64,000 bases of DNA from an uncultured Salinisphaerales bacterium (GCA_913055805.1 CAJXLF010000001.1:458761-522760); one strand, 5' to 3'. Shown: positions 50,191-59,751, counted from the first letter of the stretch. The notes: generated from the letters alone by a model not told the origin. Numbers and translations are program-made.

Positions 50191-50649
50191 ATGCGTAAAA
50201 GTGAATTGAACCGCTTTCTGGACCAGGCACAGGCTATGTGCGACGAGCGTGGTGTGCGCCTCACGGCCCAGCGACGCGAAGTGCTGGGTATTATCCATGC
50301 GGCGGGCCAGCCGATCGGCGCCTATGAAATTCTGGAAAGGATGAGGCAGGGTGGCCGCAAGCCCGCACCGCCCACCGTTTACCGCGCCCTGGAATTTCTT
50401 CTTCAGGAACATCTCATCCACAAGCTGGAAACCCTGCATGCCTATGTGGCCTGCAGCCATCCCGATCATCCGCATGCCAGCCAGTTTCTGATCTGCAGCC
50501 AGTGCGGCGAGGTGGATGAGCTGGAAAGCGCCGGCCTCGACGGCACGTTGAGCGACCTGGCTCGCACCCGTGGCTTCCGGCCGCAATCCCATACGGTCGA
50601 GGTTTCTGGCACCTGTGCGGAGTGTGCGCAGGGCAAGTCAGCCGGTTAG
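50191..50649 (+). CDS. zur: Fur-family zinc uptake regulator
   Basis: A 152-residue Fur-type repressor. The winged helix occupies about residues 15-85 (RGVRLTAQRREVLGIIHAAG, then PPTVYRALEFLLQEHLIHKL). The structural zinc site is formed by LICSQCGEVDEL near 99 and GTCAECAQG at the end. The HPDHPHASQFL segment and the neighbouring zinc genes indicate Zur rather than Fur. It would repress zinc uptake when zinc is plentiful. Three similar candidate Zur boxes lie at 50681, 51573 and 56421. Confidence 0.9.
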   Translation: MRKSELNRFLDQAQAMCDERGVRLTAQRREVLGIIHAAGQPIGAYEILERMRQGGRKPAPPTVYRALEFLLQEHLIHKLETLHAYVACSHPDHPHASQFLICSQCGEVDELESAGLDGTLSDLARTRGFRPQSHTVEVSGTCAECAQGKSAG

Positions 50650-50680
50650 TTTGAACCTGCGGCGCCAGTCGTGGTCTTAG

Positions 50681-50697
50681 TATGTTATAAAGTTTCA
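50681..50697. promoter_or_regulatory. Candidate Zur box 1
   Basis: TATGTTATAAAGTTTCA lies 27 nt before the lipoprotein gene at 50725. It matches the minus-strand reading of box 3 (AATGTTATAAAGTAACATT) at most positions. The right half is weaker than in boxes 2 and 3. Confidence 0.65.
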
Positions 50698-50724
50698 CTT
50701 TTACATCGGTGAAGCAGGACTGCT

Positions 50725-51192
50725 ATGCCAGACAATCTGTACAAATGCCTGTTGCCGGCCATGCTGTTACTGCTGGCTGCCTGTTCGGATCGGGGCCAGG
50801 TGCATGTCGAGCATGCCTGGATGTCAGTACCGGCAGAGGGCGTCGAAACCACGGGATTTCTTGAGGTGATGAATCCGGGCGCGGAGGCGGTGGAAATCGT
50901 TTCAGCTTCCAGCGAGGCTTTCGAAACGGTGACTTTCCATCTGCGCGAGGGCGATCACTTCCGGCCGGCACAAAGCCTGACCGTACCGGCACGCGGCCGC
51001 CTGGAGCTTGATGGCGACAACGGTCGGCTCGGCCTGGCCGGTCCGCAGCAAGGCATCAAGGACGGTGATCATCTGCCTCTGGCGCTGGCAGTGCGCCTGC
51101 ACAACGGTCAGCTGATGACGCTGGAGGCTGAACTACATGTGCACGAGGGTGAGGCAGAGCATGACCCAGAGCATGGTCACGAAGATCACTGA
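50725..51192 (+). CDS. PCuAC-like periplasmic metal-binding lipoprotein with a His-rich tail
   Basis: A 155-residue lipoprotein (signal ending LLLLAAC, Cys near 16) with the cupredoxin-like fold of PCuAC copper chaperones (HVEHAWMSVPAEGVETTGFL to MTLEAELHVHEG). The Met/His ligands typical of PCuAC are mostly lost, while the last 15 residues are rich in His and acidic residues (EAEHDPEHGHEDH). Together with the Zur box upstream this suggests zinc rather than copper binding. The set resembles the zinc-repressed PA4063-PA4066 operon of Pseudomonas aeruginosa. Confidence 0.75.
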   Translation: MPDNLYKCLLPAMLLLLAACSDRGQVHVEHAWMSVPAEGVETTGFLEVMNPGAEAVEIVSASSEAFETVTFHLREGDHFRPAQSLTVPARGRLELDGDNGRLGLAGPQQGIKDGDHLPLALAVRLHNGQLMTLEAELHVHEGEAEHDPEHGHEDH

Positions 51193-51557
51193 CTGGCGAT
51201 TTTCAGGCGCAGGCGGAGGTTCATGCTATGGGCAAATACGATCAGCAAGGCGCCGCCGCTGAGGATCCAGGGCTCATATTGCTCGCCCAGACCGCCCTTG
51301 AAGGCGTAAAGCAGGAAACCCACGAGTGCACAGGCCAGCGGCCACATCTGTCCATGATAATGGCGATAGCCATTGAGCAGGGCATAGCTGGCGATGGCGA
51401 TGGAAATGGCCAGCACGGTACTTTCGAAACCGGGTTGGGCAATCCATTGCAGGCCCAGCAAAGGCAGCACCGGTATGATCGCTGGCAGGATGAAACAGTG
51501 AATGGCGCAGGCAGATGTGGCGCAGATTCCGACGATGTCCCAGCTGCGTTGCCGCAT
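51186..51557 (-). CDS. MerC-domain membrane protein
   Basis: A 123-residue protein with four hydrophobic segments and the MerC-type Cys pair in ATSACAIHCFILPAIIPVLP (about residues 13-32). MerC proteins of mercury operons carry Hg(II), while chromosomal copies next to zur are common and are thought to handle zinc. It overlaps the lipoprotein gene end by 7 nt on the opposite strand and is divergent from the ABC gene, with a Zur box between. Confidence 0.85.
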   Translation of the reverse strand: MRQRSWDIVGICATSACAIHCFILPAIIPVLPLLGLQWIAQPGFESTVLAISIAIASYALLNGYRHYHGQMWPLACALVGFLLYAFKGGLGEQYEPWILSGGALLIVFAHSMNLRLRLKIASQ

Positions 51558-51572
51558 TTTTCACCTCACAAG

Positions 51573-51590
51573 ACGTTATAACATAACATT
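51573..51590. promoter_or_regulatory. Candidate Zur box 2
   Basis: ACGTTATAACATAACATT contains the palindrome GTTAT-AAC-ATAAC. It lies between the divergent merC-like and ABC transporter genes and ends at the base before the ABC start codon, so one bound repressor could block both. Confidence 0.75.
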
Positions 51591-52250
51591 ATGCAACAAA
51601 AGCAGGGCGCATCGCTAGTAATACAGGGTCTGGAGCACCGCTATGGCAGCCGCAGTGTGCTCACCCTGCCGGATTACCGGGTCGGCGGCGGTGAGCATCA
51701 TCTGATTCTTGGCCCCTCTGGCAGTGGCAAGACCACATTGCTGCATGTAATCGCCGGGTTGCTCAAGCCCTCGTCTGGCAGCATCGATATCGACGGACAG
51801 GCGCTTTACGCCATGAACGAAACCGGGCGCGACCGTTTCCGCGGCAGCCATATGGGTATCGTGTTCCAGCGCCTGCATCTGCTTCCGTCATTGACGGTGA
51901 CGGCCAATATTCTTCTCGCCCAGTATCTCGCGCGACAGCCACAGCAGTCCCGGCAGGTGCAGGTATTGCTCGAGGCGCTGGGCCTGGGACACCGGTTGCA
52001 TGCCTATCCCGGCGATCTGTCGCTGGGGGAGGCGCAGCGGGTGGCCATTGCCCGCGCCGTGGCCAACCGGCCGCGCCTGCTGCTGGCCGATGAGCCCACT
52101 TCCAGCCTCGACGACGCCAATGCGGCAACGGTGATCAACCTGCTGCGCAACCAGGCCGATGCGATCGGCGCGACCCTGCTGGTGGTGACGCATGACGCCC
52201 GTATCCAGGGGCACTTCGAGCAGCGTCTGGTGCTGGAGGCGGCGGCATGA
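51591..52250 (+). CDS. ABC transporter ATP-binding protein (LolD/MacB-like)
   Basis: A 219-residue ATPase. Walker A is GPSGSGKTTLLHV near residue 37, the signature is LSLGEAQRVAIARAVANRPR near 143, and Walker B LLLADEPTSSLDD. The closest general type is LolD/MacB, which works with FtsX-type permeases. It overlaps the permease gene by 4 nt. In the analogous PA4063-4066 set this ATPase/permease pair is zinc-repressed; what it moves is not known. It is not a ZnuC-type ATPase. Confidence 0.9.
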   Translation: MQQKQGASLVIQGLEHRYGSRSVLTLPDYRVGGGEHHLILGPSGSGKTTLLHVIAGLLKPSSGSIDIDGQALYAMNETGRDRFRGSHMGIVFQRLHLLPSLTVTANILLAQYLARQPQQSRQVQVLLEALGLGHRLHAYPGDLSLGEAQRVAIARAVANRPRLLLADEPTSSLDDANAATVINLLRNQADAIGATLLVVTHDARIQGHFEQRLVLEAAA

Positions 52251-53410
52251 ACCTGTGGACCCTGGCGCTGGCCTATCTGCGGCGCAATCGCCTGGCGTCG
52301 GCCCTGAATGTGCTGCTGATGGCGATCGGCATTGCCACCATTGTGCTGCTGGCCCTGTTTGCGCAGCAGATGAACCAGCGTATGAGCCGTGATGCCGCGG
52401 GGGTCGACCTGGTGCTGGGCGCCAAGGGCAGTCCGGTGCAGCTGATTCTCTCGGCCGTGTATCACGCCGATGTGCCGACCGGCAATATCGACTATGCCGA
52501 AGCTCGACGCTGGGCGCAGCACCCCATGGTGCGGCGGGCCATTCCGCAGGCGCTGGGCGATTCCTGGCGCGGCTTCCGTATTGTCGGCACCAGTCATGAC
52601 TACCCGGCGCATTACGGCGCGGCAATCGCCGAGGGCCGGCTGTGGCAAGCGCCCGGCGAAGTCACGGTAGGCGCCGAGGTGGCGGCAGCCGGCATGCAAA
52701 TAGGGCAAAGCTTCTTCGGCGTGCACGGTTTCAGTGAAAGAGGTCATGCCCACGAGAACAGCGAATACCGGGTAGTCGGCGTGCTGCAGGCCACCGGCAC
52801 CGTGGCGGACCGGTTGATATTCACCGGCCTGGAAAGCGTATGGGCGGTACACGGCGATGCGGCGCCCGAGGCGCCGGAAATCACCTCCATGCTGCTCAAC
52901 TACAAGACCCCGCTGGCGGCCACCCAGCTGCCGCGCCAGATCAACACTCAGTCGCAGCTGCAGGCTGCTTCGCCGGCCTTTGAAACGGCGCGCCTGCTCA
53001 ATCTGGTGGGCATTGGCCTGGACGGTTTCCGCCTGTTTGGCTGGTTGCTGGTGGCGACCGCCGGCATCGGTATTTTCGTGGCGCTGTATCACGCCCTGGA
53101 AGCGCGGCGCTATGACCTGGCGATGATGCGCTGCCTGGGTGCCAGCCGCTGGCAGGTAATCGCCAGCCTGGTGATCGAGGCATTGCTGCTGACCCTGGCC
53201 GGTGCCGTGCTGGGCCTGTTGCTGGGACATGCGGCGGCGGAATTGCTGGGCGCCGTCACGGATGAACGGCTGGTGCTGAGCGGGGCACAGTTCCTGCCGC
53301 AGGAGCTGGCCATCGTGGCGGCGGCCCTGGCAGTGGGCATGGTGGCGGCCGCGCTGCCGGCCATCCGGCTTTACCGCGCCGATGTGGCGCGCATACTGAG
53401 TGAAGGCTGA
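52247..53410 (+). CDS. FtsX/MacB-type ABC transporter permease
   Basis: A 387-residue permease: an N-terminal membrane helix (about 18-40), a periplasmic MacB-PCD-like domain (about 45-250) and three more helices (about 265-290, 310-335 and 350-372) forming the FtsX domain. This class uses mechanical coupling to act on lipoproteins or periplasmic partners instead of carrying a solute through a channel. It overlaps the ATPase gene by 4 nt and the DUF3299 gene by 1 nt. Confidence 0.9.
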   Translation: MNLWTLALAYLRRNRLASALNVLLMAIGIATIVLLALFAQQMNQRMSRDAAGVDLVLGAKGSPVQLILSAVYHADVPTGNIDYAEARRWAQHPMVRRAIPQALGDSWRGFRIVGTSHDYPAHYGAAIAEGRLWQAPGEVTVGAEVAAAGMQIGQSFFGVHGFSERGHAHENSEYRVVGVLQATGTVADRLIFTGLESVWAVHGDAAPEAPEITSMLLNYKTPLAATQLPRQINTQSQLQAASPAFETARLLNLVGIGLDGFRLFGWLLVATAGIGIFVALYHALEARRYDLAMMRCLGASRWQVIASLVIEALLLTLAGAVLGLLLGHAAAELLGAVTDERLVLSGAQFLPQELAIVAAALAVGMVAAALPAIRLYRADVARILSEG

Positions 53411-54303
53411 TGTTATTACGTTTTGTTCTGGTCGCGGGTTTCTGCACTCTGGCCGCTTGCGGTGCCTCGGATGAAGTTTCTGAAGCGCCGGCGGTGGGTG
53501 ATAATTCGCAGCCGGCATCGGCCGTGATGGACAGCGACGCCGGCCGCGTGCAGACGGCGAAAGCGCCTGACAAGGGCAACCCGCAGGAACCGCCGCCGGT
53601 CACGGTCGAGCTCTATAACGAGGGCCTGTATCAGAATGAGCAGGGCGTGAGGATGCTGGATGTGATTGCCGGTCAGTTGGCCTTTATCGACGTCACGCTC
53701 ATGGACCGGGAAGGCATTCCGGTCTCCGATCAAGGCCTGAAAATACATTCTTCGCGGAGTAGTGCCTTCATCGGTGCCGAGCGACTCACCGATGATGCCG
53801 GCGTCATGCAGTTTGCGGTGCGTCCGGTGCAGCAGGGTGAGGATGTGATCAGCGTGTCCTGGAACGGCGTCAAACAGCAGATCCTGCTCAACGTGATCGC
53901 CGACGAGGCCCTGCAGTGGCAGGGGGTGGATGCCGCGGAGGGCGTTGTCACCTGGGAAACACTGCTGGGTTCGCGCGTGACCTACCTCGACGATGCGGTC
54001 CGCATCGACTTCACCGAAGAAGTACAGGCGCTGGACGGCCAGGAAGTATCAGTGATCGGCTTCATCATGCCGCTGGAGTCCATGGACAAGCAGCAGCATT
54101 TCCTGCTGGTTTCCACGCCACCTTCCTGTTTCTTCCACCTGCCCGGCGGTCCGGTTGGCGCTATCGAGGTGTTTGCCGAGAAGGGCCTGGAATTTGGTTG
54201 GGGGCCGGTGCGGCTCAAGGGTCGCTTCAAGCTGTATGCGCCGGATGAATACGGCGCGGTCTACCGCCTGCATGATGCGAAGCAGGAAGCGCTGGGTTCC
54301 TAG
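53410..54303 (+). CDS. DUF3299-type lipoprotein
   Basis: A 297-residue lipoprotein (signal ending CTLAAC, Cys near 17). Residues about 60-170 look like an Ig-type beta domain; residues 175-290 resemble DUF3299 (ALDGQEVSVIGFIMPLESMD, then PPSCFFHLPGGPVGAIEVFA). DUF3299 proteins often accompany zinc-regulated MacB-like pairs. The single-base TGATG overlap couples it to the permease. A strong terminator follows. It may be the periplasmic partner of the ABC pair. Confidence 0.8.
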   Translation: MLLRFVLVAGFCTLAACGASDEVSEAPAVGDNSQPASAVMDSDAGRVQTAKAPDKGNPQEPPPVTVELYNEGLYQNEQGVRMLDVIAGQLAFIDVTLMDREGIPVSDQGLKIHSSRSSAFIGAERLTDDAGVMQFAVRPVQQGEDVISVSWNGVKQQILLNVIADEALQWQGVDAAEGVVTWETLLGSRVTYLDDAVRIDFTEEVQALDGQEVSVIGFIMPLESMDKQQHFLLVSTPPSCFFHLPGGPVGAIEVFAEKGLEFGWGPVRLKGRFKLYAPDEYGAVYRLHDAKQEALGS

Positions 54304-54365: not shown

Positions 54366-56405
54366 CTAGTCCAGTCTTCCCACGCCCTGGTCGTGAATCT
54401 CCAGCGCGTGAGCGATGCCTTCAAGAACCGCGGCGGGTAAATCCTCATCACTGATAGTGGACAGGTCGATGTCCTCGAGGATATGCGCGTAGTTCAGCGC
54501 AACCACCAGGTGATAATGGTTCTCTCCGACACTCAGCGGCTCCAGGTCCAGGGTGACCGTATGCGCCAGCGGCAGGCCGCTGCTGTCGACGGATTTCTCT
54601 GACTCCTCGCCGCCCACGGTCTGGTGCCACTGCAGGTGGAAGCCCTTGCCCATCATGTCCGGATCATCCGGCATGCCGAAGGCGTCTTCCTGGGCGGGTA
54701 CCACTGACAGGCGCAGTTTGCAGTAGCGGCCCTGTTCGACCCGCATGTTGCCCAGTATCAGCAGGGCCTCGTCCGGCTCCATGAGGTTGATGACGTGCGC
54801 GCGGTTCAGGTTGCGCTGGTCGTCCGGCACCTCGTTGCCGCCACCGCCGTGATCATGTCCATGATTATGACCGTCCTGAGCCATGGCGGTGCCGATGATG
54901 CCGCTGAAAGTCTGCTGCATCAGGCTGGCCACGCTCGTACATTTGACCAGTTCGAAACCGTCTACTACCAGATAGGCCGCTTCCAGTTCAACGGTGTTGC
55001 CAGCCGCATCTTCGAGCACTTTGGCTTCGTCGTGTTCATGATCGTGCTCTTCTTCTGATTCTTCATGCACATGTTCGTCGTGCTCATCCTCACCGGCGAT
55101 GCCGAGCCAGGTGAGATCGAAGGGTGCGAACCCGGGGTTGATGTGTCCCTCGATGTCGCCATGTTCGAGATTGACGATGGTGATACGTTCATTGGCCGGG
55201 TCGGTGATGAATGCCAGTTCTTCTGCATGGCTGAGGGCGATGCGGATAGCGGGGTCGCCGTCTCCGGCGGTGGCGACACCGGTGACAAAGGCCGCCGTCT
55301 GCCAGGCATCGTGAGGATCAAGAATGTGCAAGGTGCCTTCATCGTCCAGGATCAGGAAATGCTCGCCGTGTGCGTCCATGGCATGGGCCACGCGCTCGAT
55401 GTCCGCGCCGTTGCGCCAGTTGATTTCCGTGGCGGTTTCAGCTTCGGGATTGATGGCATACAGCACGCTGCCGCTGAAGCCGGCAAATTCTTCCAGTTCG
55501 TGATGTCCGGCCAGTTGTGAGATCCGGTGCGGGGTCGACAGCTTGAAATCATGAAAATCTTCGACCGTATCGCCTTCCTGGTGAATCACCAGCACGCCGT
55601 CAGTGCAACCGAAGAGACTGTAATCGTGATTGGAGAAACTGCCGTGCAGACCGTCGCACAGGGTGGCAAAGCGGTGCTCGTGATGGAAATGATCCCCATG
55701 CAGTTCGTACAGGTCCACCTGGTTGGGCAGGCTGCCTTCGGCATCGGATTCGCGGTGGGTGGCCAGCAGCCAGTCGCCACGGGGTTCCGCGGTGCCATGC
55801 ATCCAGGTCGGGAACACCTGCTCGGCAATAATCTGGCCGTTGCCGATGCTGGCGTCCGACAGCAGGTTCACGCTGGCGGGCAGTTCTTCGGTGTCCAGAC
55901 CGTCGCAGAACAGGGCGGCCAGGCCCTCGTGCGCTTCGTAGTGGGTCGGGCGGATGCAGTTATCCAGCTGCATGGCCAGTAGCAGGGGATCTTCCTCGTG
56001 CACATGCGCGTGATCATCGTGTTCTTCCGACCACAGACCGCCGTCGATGAAATTGACATGGCTGTCGTCACGCTGGGCGATCAGCGCATAGCGTTGAGCC
56101 GGGCTGGCATGGATGGCGCTTACCGCGTGATCGAACTCAAACTCCTCCAGGTTGGCTTCAGTCTCCAGATCGTAGACATACACATGGGAGTGCTCGCCCT
56201 CGACTTCGCCGAAAACCAGGCGGCCGCCGCTTTCAGACTCATGTTCATGCTCGTCTTCCTCGTGATCATGCTCGTCGCCGAGCTGTGTCTGTGCGACCTG
56301 TACATGACCTTCGTTGTAGTCATCGCTGTCGCCGGGGCAGCCGCTCAGAAGCAGCGCCAGTACCGACATCAGCGATACAGTGAAAAAATGCTTTCCCTGT
56401 GTCAT
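54366..56405 (-). CDS. His-rich beta-propeller zinc chaperone lipoprotein (AztD-like) with an extra C-terminal domain
   Basis: A 679-residue lipoprotein (signal ending LLLSGC). Residues about 60-440 look like a beta-propeller with YVYDLETEANLEEF and ITIVNLEHGDIEGHINPGF, as in the periplasmic zinc chaperone AztD. At least three His/Asp/Glu-rich stretches interrupt it: GDEHDHEEDEHEHESE near 43, SEEHDDHAHVHEED near 127, and EDEHDEHVHEESEEEHDHEH near 445. A further region (about 500-679), with GHNHGHDHGGGG and GRYCKLRLSVVPAQED, is not part of AztD and resembles the MbnP-type domain. It is the last gene after a metal ABC permease and binding protein, and a Zur box lies just upstream. Confidence 0.75.
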   Translation of the reverse strand: MTQGKHFFTVSLMSVLALLLSGCPGDSDDYNEGHVQVAQTQLGDEHDHEEDEHEHESESGGRLVFGEVEGEHSHVYVYDLETEANLEEFEFDHAVSAIHASPAQRYALIAQRDDSHVNFIDGGLWSEEHDDHAHVHEEDPLLLAMQLDNCIRPTHYEAHEGLAALFCDGLDTEELPASVNLLSDASIGNGQIIAEQVFPTWMHGTAEPRGDWLLATHRESDAEGSLPNQVDLYELHGDHFHHEHRFATLCDGLHGSFSNHDYSLFGCTDGVLVIHQEGDTVEDFHDFKLSTPHRISQLAGHHELEEFAGFSGSVLYAINPEAETATEINWRNGADIERVAHAMDAHGEHFLILDDEGTLHILDPHDAWQTAAFVTGVATAGDGDPAIRIALSHAEELAFITDPANERITIVNLEHGDIEGHINPGFAPFDLTWLGIAGEDEHDEHVHEESEEEHDHEHDEAKVLEDAAGNTVELEAAYLVVDGFELVKCTSVASLMQQTFSGIIGTAMAQDGHNHGHDHGGGGNEVPDDQRNLNRAHVINLMEPDEALLILGNMRVEQGRYCKLRLSVVPAQEDAFGMPDDPDMMGKGFHLQWHQTVGGEESEKSVDSSGLPLAHTVTLDLEPLSVGENHYHLVVALNYAHILEDIDLSTISDEDLPAAVLEGIAHALEIHDQGVGRLD

Positions 56406-56420
56406 GAATAAATCTCCAAT

Positions 56421-56439
56421 AATGTTACTTTATAACATT
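56421..56439. promoter_or_regulatory. Candidate Zur box 3
   Basis: AATGTTACTTTATAACATT has 7-bp perfect arms (AATGTTA and TAACATT) around 5 nt. It overlaps the end of the permease gene and lies 16 nt upstream of the AztD-like start, suggesting a separate zinc-controlled promoter for that gene inside the operon. Confidence 0.78.
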
Positions 56440-57198
56440 GCATATTAGCATGCTTATCGCCGCCGCGGTTACGCTCATGCCAGCTAGTGTCAACACCACC
56501 AGCGGGCCGGAGGGCAGGTCGAAAAGTGCGGAGCAGGCCAGACCCAGCGTGTAACCCGCAATGCCGACGACGCCGGCGATGGCAAAAGCCGGCAGTGTCG
56601 GCCGTTTGACCACGGCCAGCGCCGGCAGGATGAGGGTGGCAAATACCAGGAAGATGCCGACCAGTTGTACGGATACCGTTACGCTCACGGCAAACAGCAC
56701 ATAGAAGCCCCAGATGTTGCGGACTACGCCCAGCGCCATGGCGGCAAGCACAGCCAGAGTAATCATCAATGGCGCCAGCAGATCATCGAAAGTGACCCAG
56801 AGTATCTGTCCGGCAAGTAGCTGGTTGAGCTGTTCATGGCCATGGGCGGCATTGGCGAGCAGCAGTAGCATCACGCAGGCTGAAAGCACATACAGGCTGC
56901 CGATCAGGGCTTCCTGAATCTGTGGCCAGCGGCGTTCTGTCCATGCCAGCAGCAATGCTGCAGCCAGCGCGCCAGCGGTGGCCGACAGTTGTGCGTGCCA
57001 GTCTGCATGTTCATGCCCGGGTCCGTGGTTCCAGAGCATCTCCATGGTCACGCCCAGCGCCGCAACCTGGGCCACGGTCAGATCCAGGAAGATAATGCCC
57101 CGCTCCAGCACACGCCGCCCCAGCGGAATGTGCGTGATGCAGACCAGTAACCCCGCGCACAGCGGGGCCGCCAGCAGGCTCCAGTCGAATCCCGTCAC
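56425..57198 (-). CDS. Metal ABC transporter permease (AztB/ZnuB family)
   Basis: A 257-residue permease with about eight hydrophobic segments, of the ABC-3 family that imports zinc or manganese. GRRVLERGIIFLDLTVAQVA near residue 27 and FYVLFAVSVTVSVQLVGIFL near 169 are family typical. Its start overlaps the end of the binding-protein gene by 4 nt. No ATP-binding partner of the ZnuC/AztA type is found in the window. The neighbouring chaperone gene points to the Azt-type system. Confidence 0.9.
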   Translation of the reverse strand: MTGFDWSLLAAPLCAGLLVCITHIPLGRRVLERGIIFLDLTVAQVAALGVTMEMLWNHGPGHEHADWHAQLSATAGALAAALLLAWTERRWPQIQEALIGSLYVLSACVMLLLLANAAHGHEQLNQLLAGQILWVTFDDLLAPLMITLAVLAAMALGVVRNIWGFYVLFAVSVTVSVQLVGIFLVFATLILPALAVVKRPTLPAFAIAGVVGIAGYTLGLACSALFDLPSGPLVVLTLAGMSVTAAAISMLICNVIK

Positions 57199-58112
57199 GA
57201 ACTGCTCTCTGCCTGAGCCGTCTTCAGCAGCATGCTGATCATTGTCGTGTAGAGCCTTTCCAGCGTGTTCGTTCCCTCAACGCCACCTACTGTGGTCGGC
57301 AGGATGACGATGGGGTAGCGGGTGCGCTCCGCCAGCCATTCTGCCGGTCGGTTCGACTGGTAAGTGGCCGCCAAGATCATGCTCGCAGGTTCCGTTTTCA
57401 GTTCGGCCAGCAACTTGTTGAGGTAGGCCGCGCTGGGCGGGATGCCGGGCTTGGGCTCGAGGTTATTCACTTCCACTATGCCCAGCCAGTCAAACAGATA
57501 GCTGAAGGACTTGTGATGAGCCACCACCTTCACGCCCTTGAGGGGCGCTGCCTGTGCTTCCCAGCTGCTGATTTTGCCCTGCCATACCTTCTCGAAGGTG
57601 GCCTGGCGGCGGGCATAGACATCCGCATTGGCAGGATCAAGCTGTGCCATTTTCCCGGCCAGACGCTTGCTGATGGGGATCATGTTCCTTGGATCCAGAT
57701 GCACATGCGGGTTGCCCTGCGGGTGGACATCGCCGTCGGCCCGGTCCAGGCGTTCGGGGATTTCCAGCATATCCAGGCCCTCACTGGCAAAAAACAAGCC
57801 GGCACCTCCCGGACGCAGGGCGGGGTTACCTCCGCTGTTCTGCAGTACCGGCAGCCAGCCGATTTCCAGATCCGCACCGGTGCATATGCCAAGATCCGCC
57901 TGGCGGAATTTGGCGATGAGGCTCGGCCTTGGCTGGATGAGGTGGGGGTCCTGCTGGGCAGTGGTGGCGCTGAATGCTTCCACATGCTCGCCCCCGAGTT
58001 CCTTGCTCAGCGCAGCCCATTCCGGTTCACAGGCGAAAACCTTCAGCCCAGCATGAGCGAGTCCAGCCTGCATGAGGAACACCATGCAGGCTGCATTGAT
58101 GAATACTCGCAT
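57195..58112 (-). CDS. Zinc ABC transporter substrate-binding protein (ZnuA/AztC-like)
   Basis: A 305-residue periplasmic binding protein with a signal peptide ending LAHAG. His ligands are visible in AQQDPHLIQPRPS near residue 55, GNPHVHLDPRN near 135 and VVAHHKSFSYLFDWLG near 195. It lacks the long His-rich loop of ZnuA, like AztC. It would collect zinc in the periplasm and deliver it to the permease encoded next. Nine nucleotides separate it from the barrel-protein gene upstream. Confidence 0.9.
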   Translation of the reverse strand: MRVFINAACMVFLMQAGLAHAGLKVFACEPEWAALSKELGGEHVEAFSATTAQQDPHLIQPRPSLIAKFRQADLGICTGADLEIGWLPVLQNSGGNPALRPGGAGLFFASEGLDMLEIPERLDRADGDVHPQGNPHVHLDPRNMIPISKRLAGKMAQLDPANADVYARRQATFEKVWQGKISSWEAQAAPLKGVKVVAHHKSFSYLFDWLGIVEVNNLEPKPGIPPSAAYLNKLLAELKTEPASMILAATYQSNRPAEWLAERTRYPIVILPTTVGGVEGTNTLERLYTTMISMLLKTAQAESSS

Positions 58113-58121
58113 GATTTTCTC

Positions 58122-59339
58122 CTAGTACTGGTGAGCCGGGTGTGAACCCAGACTCATGATGTATTGCAGGAATACCTGGTTGTCGACTTCACCACCGGGT
58201 TGTGACTCATCGCGGTTGTACTGAATTCTGAAACGGGAGAATTCACTGCGTGAGAAATCAACCATGGCACTGATGCGCTGTGGGTCGTCATTGTTCAGCA
58301 GATTGTTGAACTGACCAGCCGGGTTGTTCGGCAGGTCGTTATCAGTTTCCAGCCAGTCATATCTCAGACCGACACGCCAGCGTGGTACAAACTGATAGAT
58401 GACCTGACCATACCAGGCCTGAGGGGACGCCTCGTAGGCGCTCGATACTGCACCCAGGGTGCCGTTGTCACTGAAGTCGAGTGTGCCGTCTTCATCGCCA
58501 ATGATGTACTCGGCCTGCACGATGAGATGACATTCTCTTGGGTTGCCGTTGGGCGCCCACTTCACAACCATGTCGACGCCGCTGCGAGTGGTGTCACCGG
58601 TGAAGTCAAATATTTCATTGGTGGCGCCGTCGCCAAAGCTTTGGCGGCCTTCTGCGTCGCCATCCAGATGCCAGATCCCGAGTCGCCAGGAGGTGTCGGT
58701 GCCAAAGTCGCCGCCGAGGTGGCCGAAGACGGTGACGGTGTTAATGCCGCTGCAATCTTCGCAGTTGGTCGGGAAACTGGCGCCACGCATGGCTTCTGCA
58801 CCCACTTCCATAAACAGATCAGTCGGCGCAATCCATTTCAGCTGGATACCGTCATCACGATAGTTATTGGCAAGCAGTACCCGGTAGCCCAGTGGCTGAT
58901 CGATAAAGTCCCAGGCGTGGCTATGGGTTTTATTCAGATAGCCAATGTCAGAGAAGAAGCGCCCAAACTTGGCCGTGAAGCCCTGTGGCAGGCTGAGTGT
59001 GTTGATATAGGCTTCTTCCACATCAATCTCGGTTTCACCGTCGTGCTCATGCAGGCCGAGAGTGACCCAGCCACGGTAGGCATCGTCGATATTGGCTTCT
59101 GCGGCAATTTCGGTTTCCACCAGTGAAAAGCCGTCAGCTCGCAGCTCGGATTCGCCGCCAAGCAGAGAACCGCGCACGGCCGAATCGCCCTCGGAATAAT
59201 CGGCGTAACTGCCCTGCAGGATGAGGCTTATCTTGGGGTTGAAACCGCTGCCGGAACCACCGTTCTGGGCCTGGGTCAGGGATGGCATAAGTAACAAAAA
59301 TGCGGCGCCTGCCAGGGCGCCTATACGGAACATTCGCAT
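58122..59339 (-). CDS. Outer-membrane beta-barrel protein of the zinc operon
   Basis: A 405-residue protein with a signal peptide (LAGAAFLLLMPSLTQA) and alternating beta-strand pattern (PKISLILQGSYADYSEG, GFTAKFGRFFSDIGYLNK and RWRVGLRYDWLETDNDLP). Three short acidic or His segments occur (LGLHEHDGETEIDVEEA). It resembles uncharacterised porins found in front of zinc uptake genes. Being first in line before the binding protein and permease, it probably admits zinc or a zinc complex. It does not look like a TonB-dependent receptor: there is no plug domain. Confidence 0.75.
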   Translation of the reverse strand: MRMFRIGALAGAAFLLLMPSLTQAQNGGSGSGFNPKISLILQGSYADYSEGDSAVRGSLLGGESELRADGFSLVETEIAAEANIDDAYRGWVTLGLHEHDGETEIDVEEAYINTLSLPQGFTAKFGRFFSDIGYLNKTHSHAWDFIDQPLGYRVLLANNYRDDGIQLKWIAPTDLFMEVGAEAMRGASFPTNCEDCSGINTVTVFGHLGGDFGTDTSWRLGIWHLDGDAEGRQSFGDGATNEIFDFTGDTTRSGVDMVVKWAPNGNPRECHLIVQAEYIIGDEDGTLDFSDNGTLGAVSSAYEASPQAWYGQVIYQFVPRWRVGLRYDWLETDNDLPNNPAGQFNNLLNNDDPQRISAMVDFSRSEFSRFRIQYNRDESQPGGEVDNQVFLQYIMSLGSHPAHQY

Positions 59340-59402
59340 GTTCTAAACTCCATTCAATCACTGAATGCAGGCGGATTTTGCCTGCCAGATTCAAACAATC
59401 AG

Positions 59403-59690
59403 TCAGAGAATGGTGTGAGGTGGGGCGCGGATATTGGCCTCGGCCAGGCGCACATCAGCCGGTGCAGGCGATGATTGGCTGGCGGGCACGAAGCGGGCCG
59501 CAATCGCCGGCAGTGAAACGATGCTGCTGGTCTGGGCCTGCTCAAGGTTGTGGCTCTGAATACAGATGACGCAGAGGCCATCATGAGTTTGTTGAGGCGC
59601 GGTATGTTCAGCACTGTGCGCAAGCACAGTCCACTGCCCCGCAAGCAGTGCCAGGGCGAGCAGTAACCATTTGGGCTGAAAACGCTTCAT
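59403..59690 (-). CDS. Small secreted protein with a CxxC motif
   Basis: A 95-residue protein with a signal peptide (WLLLALALLAGQWTVLAHSA) and a short mature part containing several His and the motif DGLCVICIQSHNLEQ. It resembles DUF2946-type proteins seen near metal transport genes. The ATG at 59690 gives a clean signal. It lies 63 nt upstream of the barrel-protein gene on the same strand and is divergent from dapF. A metal-related role is plausible from context only. Confidence 0.65.
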   Translation of the reverse strand: MKRFQPKWLLLALALLAGQWTVLAHSAEHTAPQQTHDGLCVICIQSHNLEQAQTSSIVSLPAIAARFVPASQSSPAPADVRLAEANIRAPPHTIL

Positions 59691-59751
59691 AACCGCACGA
59701 TTATAGGGCATTTGCTCGCTCGGGCAATGAGTGGCCGGTATCATGTGCGCC

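Follow-up and report, generated by a model that had tools for sequence, protein, structure and literature searches.

An ATPase-free barrel, binding protein and permease module, a candidate zinc route, beside an AztD-like fusion gene in an uncultured Salinisphaerales bacterium

Zinc-related genes at the locus

We analyzed a locus at positions 54366 to 59690 of a 64,000-nucleotide stretch of DNA from an uncultured Salinisphaerales bacterium (GCA_913055805.1, CAJXLF010000001.1:458761-522760), here called the window, which an earlier note had described as an Azt-like zinc operon with an outer-membrane barrel protein, a fused chaperone and no ATPase. The open reading frames of the window place all five described genes on the minus strand, tightly packed, and Pfam and NCBIfam matches support the view that AztB-, AztC- and AztD-like, zinc-related parts lie together on that strand, with the Azt models all scoring well under their cut-offs. 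The idea of one operon probably does not hold, as an internal Zur box suggests that the locus consists of two units, an ATPase-free module encoding a CxxC protein, a barrel, a binding protein and a permease, and an AztD-like gene with a separate Zur box in front of it. The features are as follows.

59700..59727, minus strand: promoter-like site TTGCCC-16-TATAAT just 5' of the small CxxC gene; weak, with 1 such site found against 1.5 expected
59403..59690, minus strand: small secreted CxxC protein, DUF2946-like; ATG at 59690, PF11162 at E 0.021, under the cut-off
58122..59339, minus strand: outer-membrane barrel with an OprP/OprO-like fold, from a predicted model and a structural match
57195..58112, minus strand: ZnuA/AztC-like periplasmic binding protein; PF01297 at E 8.6e-39
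56425..57198, minus strand: ABC-3-fold permease (ABC, ATP-binding cassette) without an ATPase partner; PF00950 at E 1.5e-15
56419..56441, no strand: Zur-box-like palindrome, 17/22, top-scoring in the window, 14 bp 5' of the start of the AztD-like gene and extending into the 3' end of the permease gene
54366..56405, minus strand: AztD-like beta-propeller lipoprotein of 679 residues with His-rich tracts; NCBIfam AztD match and C-terminal fusion
54366..55028, minus strand: extra C-terminal domain of the AztD-like protein, about residues 460-679, from a family otherwise stand-alone beside MbnH
51570..51592, no strand: second Zur-box-like site, 16/22, at the start of a LolD-like operon on the opposite strand

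The genes for the binding protein and the permease overlap by 4 bp and only 19 bp separate the permease gene from the AztD-like gene; since the minus-strand genes abut or overlap, there is no space for an ATPase gene. The earlier claim that the ATPase is absent was confirmed beyond the locus as well, as the ZnuC model, a profile of the ATPase from the sister variant described below, and a reading of ATPases in context revealed no ZnuC or AztA homologue of the right kind elsewhere in the host assembly (G000, 95.7% complete). The whole-genome searches used the first two of these in place of the AztA model NF040873. The ZnuC model gave nothing above 101 bits in the host, nothing above 105 bits in the host together with 14 module carriers of its order, and no ZnuC-like ATPase in the single-contig carriers G163, G165 and G208, while ZnuC-like ATPases adjoining canonical ZnuB, our positive control, reached 113-324 bits in the same search. 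Two genomes (G221 and G224) that carry a canonical permease yet give no match at that cut tell us, therefore, that the ZnuC model misses some metal ATPases. The sister-variant profile reached 306-327 bits in two sister genomes, its positive control, and at most 93 bits in G000, G080, G163, G165 and G208.

The ABC ATPases of the host, named by reading their sequences and neighbors rather than by a model scan of each protein, comprise ABC-2 types, MlaF, a BtuD-like protein beside its FecCD permease, LptB, LolD, FtsE, YbbA, ModC, Opp/Dpp, PstB, SufC, CcmA, a heme type, MsbA-like and ABC-F proteins, and others. None of the matches read is an orphan, each having its own partner, with the permease of the heme-type ATPase not delimited. 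The host holds a single ABC-3 permease; a ZIP transporter was not found in it, and none exceeded the cut-off in its single-contig relative G080.

An ATPase-free module in several phyla and its sister form

Homologues of the permease occur at 52-57% identity over most of their length in 12 further genomes of the host's order, with one more genome carrying it in pieces and another at 38% identity, and none of these copies is adjoined by an ATPase. Scanning genome contigs yielded 52 loci, distributed over Gamma-, Beta- and Alphaproteobacteria, Campylobacterales, Nitrospirae and Omnitrophota. After removal of recognized duplicates there are 73 permease loci (L057 and L084 still being one genome, and a few more duplicates being possible), which span Gamma-, Beta- and Alphaproteobacteria, Campylobacterota, Nitrospirota and Omnitrophota. 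The binding protein gene is adjacent in 71 and the barrel gene in 63 of these, and most of the remainder are cut by contig ends; a small CxxC-like gene lies 5' of the barrel in 40/73 loci at a loose threshold. Only one locus (L072) has an ABC ATPase within 1 kb on the same strand, a LolD-like protein with a MacB-like permease behind it. When all open frames were clustered, barrel, binding protein and permease proved to be the only common content, and no conserved neighbor able to supply energy or function was found. A RefSeq-annotated Sulfurovum plasmid shows the same arrangement, a hypothetical barrel, a zinc binding protein and a metal ABC permease with no ATPase, and a Vibrio campbellii replicon also carries the module. 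At the level of sequence we regard the existence of a conserved ATPase-free porin-binder-permease module as solid, and the open literature searched gave no description of an ATPase-free ABC-3 module, which is weak evidence of absence.

Some loci of this set have peculiarities of their own. The Vibrio campbellii replicon (L194, NZ_CP050465.1; 2.06 Mb) is filed as a plasmid and is probably chromosome II. At L062 (9949-13580), RFIPAGAGNT/VHPRRRGEH peptides recur in long open frames near the distant permease copy, probably a CRISPR array read as protein. At L057 (24-395 and 5732-6007), the binding protein gene occurs again as a short fragment about 5 kb from the module, perhaps through a partial duplication or at an assembly seam.

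Five further loci have the order barrel, binding protein, ATPase, permease (L147 7008-10668; L148 13268-17080; L154 2935-6809; L161 2896-6811; L162 3017-6904). This sister variant shares with the ATPase-free module the same barrel and binding protein families in the same gene order, but differs from it in having an AztA-like ATPase (91-99 bits), a very distant full-length permease that no NCBIfam model matched, and Zur boxes, which score 15-19/22 in 4/5 loci. In a tree rooted on canonical ZnuA, the sister binding proteins fall inside the ATPase-free family, next to its proteobacterial clade with weak support (86/62), and this nesting favors, without proof, a later swap-in of an ATP-driven permease-ATPase pair. 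Taken together, the ATPase-free permeases do not form one well-supported clade in the tree of permeases.

The permease itself is recognizably of the ABC-3 fold. The window protein reaches 47.6 bits against the NCBIfam AztB model (cut-off of 280 bits), the family profile matches solved ZnuB (9oko) at E 4.6e-17, and the predicted model, of high confidence (predicted local distance difference test score [pLDDT] of 91.9), matches PsaC (7kyp) with Z 22.6 over 242 residues (root mean square deviation [rmsd], 3.5). The stretch from GQILW to VG measures 71 residues in every canonical, ATP-driven permease (n = 32) and every sister permease, 56-68 residues in 12 distant members of the ATPase-free family and 48-52 residues in the 54 near members, which thus lack about 19 cytoplasmic residues that 32/32 ATP-driven relatives keep. 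Profile alignments with solved ZnuB and PsaC map the gap to the segment just before the helix leading into the coupling region, where the model has a short loop. In the coupling region itself, the consensus PAATARxFARxPEQM of many canonical sequences is lost in near members, usually with a shortening by two residues. The coupling helix by which type II importers bind their ATPase sits in the cytoplasmic stretch between transmembrane helices 6 and 7 (PMC5136619), and if this location carries over to the ABC-3 fold, the alignments would indicate that near members have lost the ATPase-docking interface.

The metal path appears to be rewired too. An Asp-His-Asp triad is essential in the MntBC permease (PMC8487065), and canonical permeases keep its His and Asp in 32/32 cases, while the ATPase-free permeases have Gln at the H51 position and Glu at the D94 position in 66/66. 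In addition, an Asp is displaced by one position, and position 23 is His in 66/66; the Vibrio campbellii permease has Asn where the others have His23. A nearly invariant His/Asp/Gln/Glu set (H23, D39, Q44 and E96 in the window) thus replaces the triad.

The binding protein matches solved ZnuA-like chains at E 5.4e-13 and has AztC as its best NCBIfam match; three ligand His residues are conserved and the canonical Asp is absent, in ATPase-free and sister variants alike. The predicted barrel (pLDDT 87.1) matches 2o4v with Z 28.5 over 316 residues (rmsd 2.9). While its fold is thus like that of the phosphate porins OprP and OprO, identity to them is 15%, and the invariant acidic and His residues (E77, D85, E108, H139, H141, H400 and H403) belong to the barrel family of the window, whose substrate, unlike that of OprP/OprO, is presumably a metal cation. 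By our own reading of the strand order in the model, H139 and H141 would sit in the constriction loop. Pfam Porin_O_P matches 1/37 members of the family, and the window barrel matches Pfam BBP2 only, under its cut-off.

The AztD-like fusion protein and the zinc regulon

The AztD-like protein matches NCBIfam AztD (NF038015) at E 3.9e-20 but with 72 bits against a cut-off of 400 bits. Its propeller body can be aligned with AztD (6cmk and 6ck1) over most of its length, and at site 1, formed by three His residues, H155 and H203 of the window protein align with His124 and His167, while H254 aligns with a conserved His that could not be matched to the published number 218. At site 2 (His99, His102, Asp104 and His408), H129 and H132 align and Asp104 corresponds to H134; the C-terminal His cannot be assigned because of the fusion. 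The His-rich loops that the earlier note singled out are real (58 His among 679 residues) and are found in both proteins, yet they are not unusual, as published AztD homologues commonly carry His-rich tracts, terminal or inserted (PMC6689063). Differences from AztD, which is encoded in an aztABCD operon, are the His in place of Asp104, the separate Zur box and the added C-terminal domain.

That domain, also claimed earlier, proved to be a true addition, and no second AztD-like protein was seen to carry it. In the host's order, four AztD-like relatives (426-447 residues) match residues 43-462 only and are without it. Three of the four follow a TonB receptor, of which the one scanned is ZnuD-like, forming a recurring receptor-chaperone pair (L020 6037-9555; L021 6417-10004; L022 6665-10190). 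In Alcanivorax, the module and a receptor-like gene are followed by an AztD-like copy that ends in its His tail. The extra domain is present in 6/274 sampled genomes, and in G015, and every case except that of the window is a stand-alone gene beside an MbnH gene (L024 5497-6234; L025 6194-6994; L187-L190), encoding a lipoprotein of about 245-270 residues with no Pfam or NCBIfam match. It is solid, as far as these genomes are concerned, that the chaperone fusion is seen only in the window genome, 1 of the 6 holders. The MbnP family (PF20243) gave no Pfam match to the extra domain in the whole window protein or in L024 and L025, and no MbnH exceeded the cut-off in the host genome; the MbnH neighborhood elsewhere suggests that the domain may have a metal-related role.

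Zur boxes were scored out of 22 against the E. coli Zur consensus, from which motifs outside the Gammaproteobacteria may differ. Sites of at least 16/22 are expected by chance 0.04 times per 64 kb, and the two best of the window score 17 and 16. As the best of them lies between the permease and AztD-like genes, the chaperone seems to form a unit apart, under Zur control of its own. The second lies at the start of the LolD-like operon on the opposite strand, where Pfam and NCBIfam reveal a zinc regulon with a Zur-like regulator, PCuAC, a LolD-like ATPase and its MacB-like permease, and DUF3299. This stretch (50191-54303), which also includes a MerC gene and has a strong Zur box, resembles the uncharacterized PA4063-PA4066 operon of Pseudomonas aeruginosa. 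Its LolD-like ATPase, at 51591, was considered as a partner for the ABC-3 permease and rejected, as it is of the LolD/MacB type, overlaps its own MacB-like permease and, together with that permease, resembles the zinc-responsive PA4064-PA4065.

Possible modes of action and their meaning

Like ZnuABC/AztABC/PsaBCA-type (cluster A-I) importers, the module joins a ZnuA/AztC-like binding protein and an ABC-3-fold permease in one operon; unlike them, it has no ATPase gene, about 19 fewer cytoplasmic residues, no Asp-His-Asp triad, and an outer-membrane barrel within the unit. ABC importers are defined by their ATPase. As such a subunit was found neither in the operon nor elsewhere, we do not file the module among them, though it may act in the same way on a different source of energy.

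Zinc import without ATP seems to us the best reading, and we judge it about evenly balanced whether the CxxC, barrel, binding protein and permease genes form a self-contained, ATPase-free zinc route across both membranes. We infer the substrate, direction, energy source and zinc hand-over as follows. Zinc would enter the periplasm via the OprP-like pore with its conserved acidic and His residues, be caught by the three-His ZnuA-like protein and be handed to a dimer of the ABC-3-fold permease, moving into the cytoplasm along the rewired His/Asp/Gln/Glu path, with a drive not from ATP but from the membrane potential and very low free cytosolic zinc, perhaps coupled to protons. The AztD-like fusion, under its own Zur control, would act as a periplasmic chaperone and may load the binding protein under zinc scarcity. 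Zinc is favored as the cargo because the binding protein and barrel are common to the sister form, with its Zur boxes and ATPase, because a Zur box (16/22) lies about 70 bp 5' of the barrel of the Vibrio campbellii module, and because the module adjoins Zur or znu genes in the window, G004 and G211. Somewhat more tentatively, we propose a widespread class of binding protein-dependent, ABC-3-fold metal importers without an ATPase, three-part systems of porin, binder and permease, in one lineage of which an ATP-driven permease-ATPase pair would later have taken the place of the permease.

Several observations weigh against ATP-free zinc import. In the 12 distant members, much of the cytoplasmic segment is still present (56-68 of 71 residues) and the coupling region has its full length, and the whole genomes searched for an ATPase are those of other members. 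No Zur box lies 5' of the barrel operon in the window, and most ATPase-free loci are without one at the module, few reaching 15/22 (L079 and L094), although, as Zur motifs may differ outside the Gammaproteobacteria, absence of a box there says little. Moreover, free diffusion would require a tight binder to let go of its zinc without ATP.

Certain sugar importers are served by a common ATPase (MsmK), and the permease could likewise be part of an ordinary ABC importer borrowing an ATPase encoded elsewhere, for instance the BtuD-like or heme-type protein that serves a related FecCD permease. The type II importer fold and the presence of type II ATPases in the genome are in line with this, but near members appear to have lost the cytoplasmic segment and coupling consensus of 32/32 canonical permeases, the host has no orphan ATPase, and none is conserved beside the module, so that we disfavor this explanation and consider it unlikely. 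To a similar degree we doubt that the cargo is a divalent metal other than zinc (Mn, Fe, Co, Ni or Cu), with the proximity of the module to the Zur regulon being incidental, a further alternative to zinc import. The binding proteins of cluster A-I include ones for Zn, for Mn and for Fe (PMC7731109), most modules have no Zur box and the small CxxC protein is weakly DUF2946-like; against this stand the AztC match and three conserved His of the binding protein, and the Zur boxes of the sister form and Vibrio campbellii. A zinc sensor, a periplasmic zinc buffer or an exporter using the pore outward would fit the absence of an energy source, the mostly missing Zur control and the changed polar path residues, but appears rather improbable, since no conserved regulator or signaling gene lies beside the module and the sister form joins the same barrel and binding protein families to an ATPase and Zur, fitting uptake. 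That the ATPase gene was lost by assembly error, as the earlier note had allowed, or by relocation or very recent loss in this one genome, is hardly conceivable and was rejected, despite the weak AztB, AztC and AztD matches and a genome only 95.7% complete, as the window genes abut or overlap, the host searches were negative and the ATPase-free layout recurs in the 73 loci, from dozens of genomes of several phyla, single-contig carriers without a ZnuC-like ATPase included.

ATP-free uptake has precedents in the binding protein-dependent tripartite ATP-independent periplasmic (TRAP) and tripartite tricarboxylate (TTT) transporters and in solitary, ATPase-free BioY, which resemble the module in its proposed mode of working, while their membrane folds and substrates are unrelated to those of the module. 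Our findings call into question the premise of the earlier note that every such importer needs an ATPase. The presence of an ATPase-free three-gene set in dozens of unrelated bacteria suggests ATP-free movement of zinc across the envelope, and if this is true, a type II fold can act as a secondary transporter or facilitator, in a multi-phylum family from which the presumed docking surface has been largely removed. The sister form, with the same barrel and binding protein families and an ATPase, is a natural control. With its barrel, the module provides a candidate metal pore of the outer membrane, and it could account for zinc entry in bacteria where neither ZnuABC nor ZIP was found.

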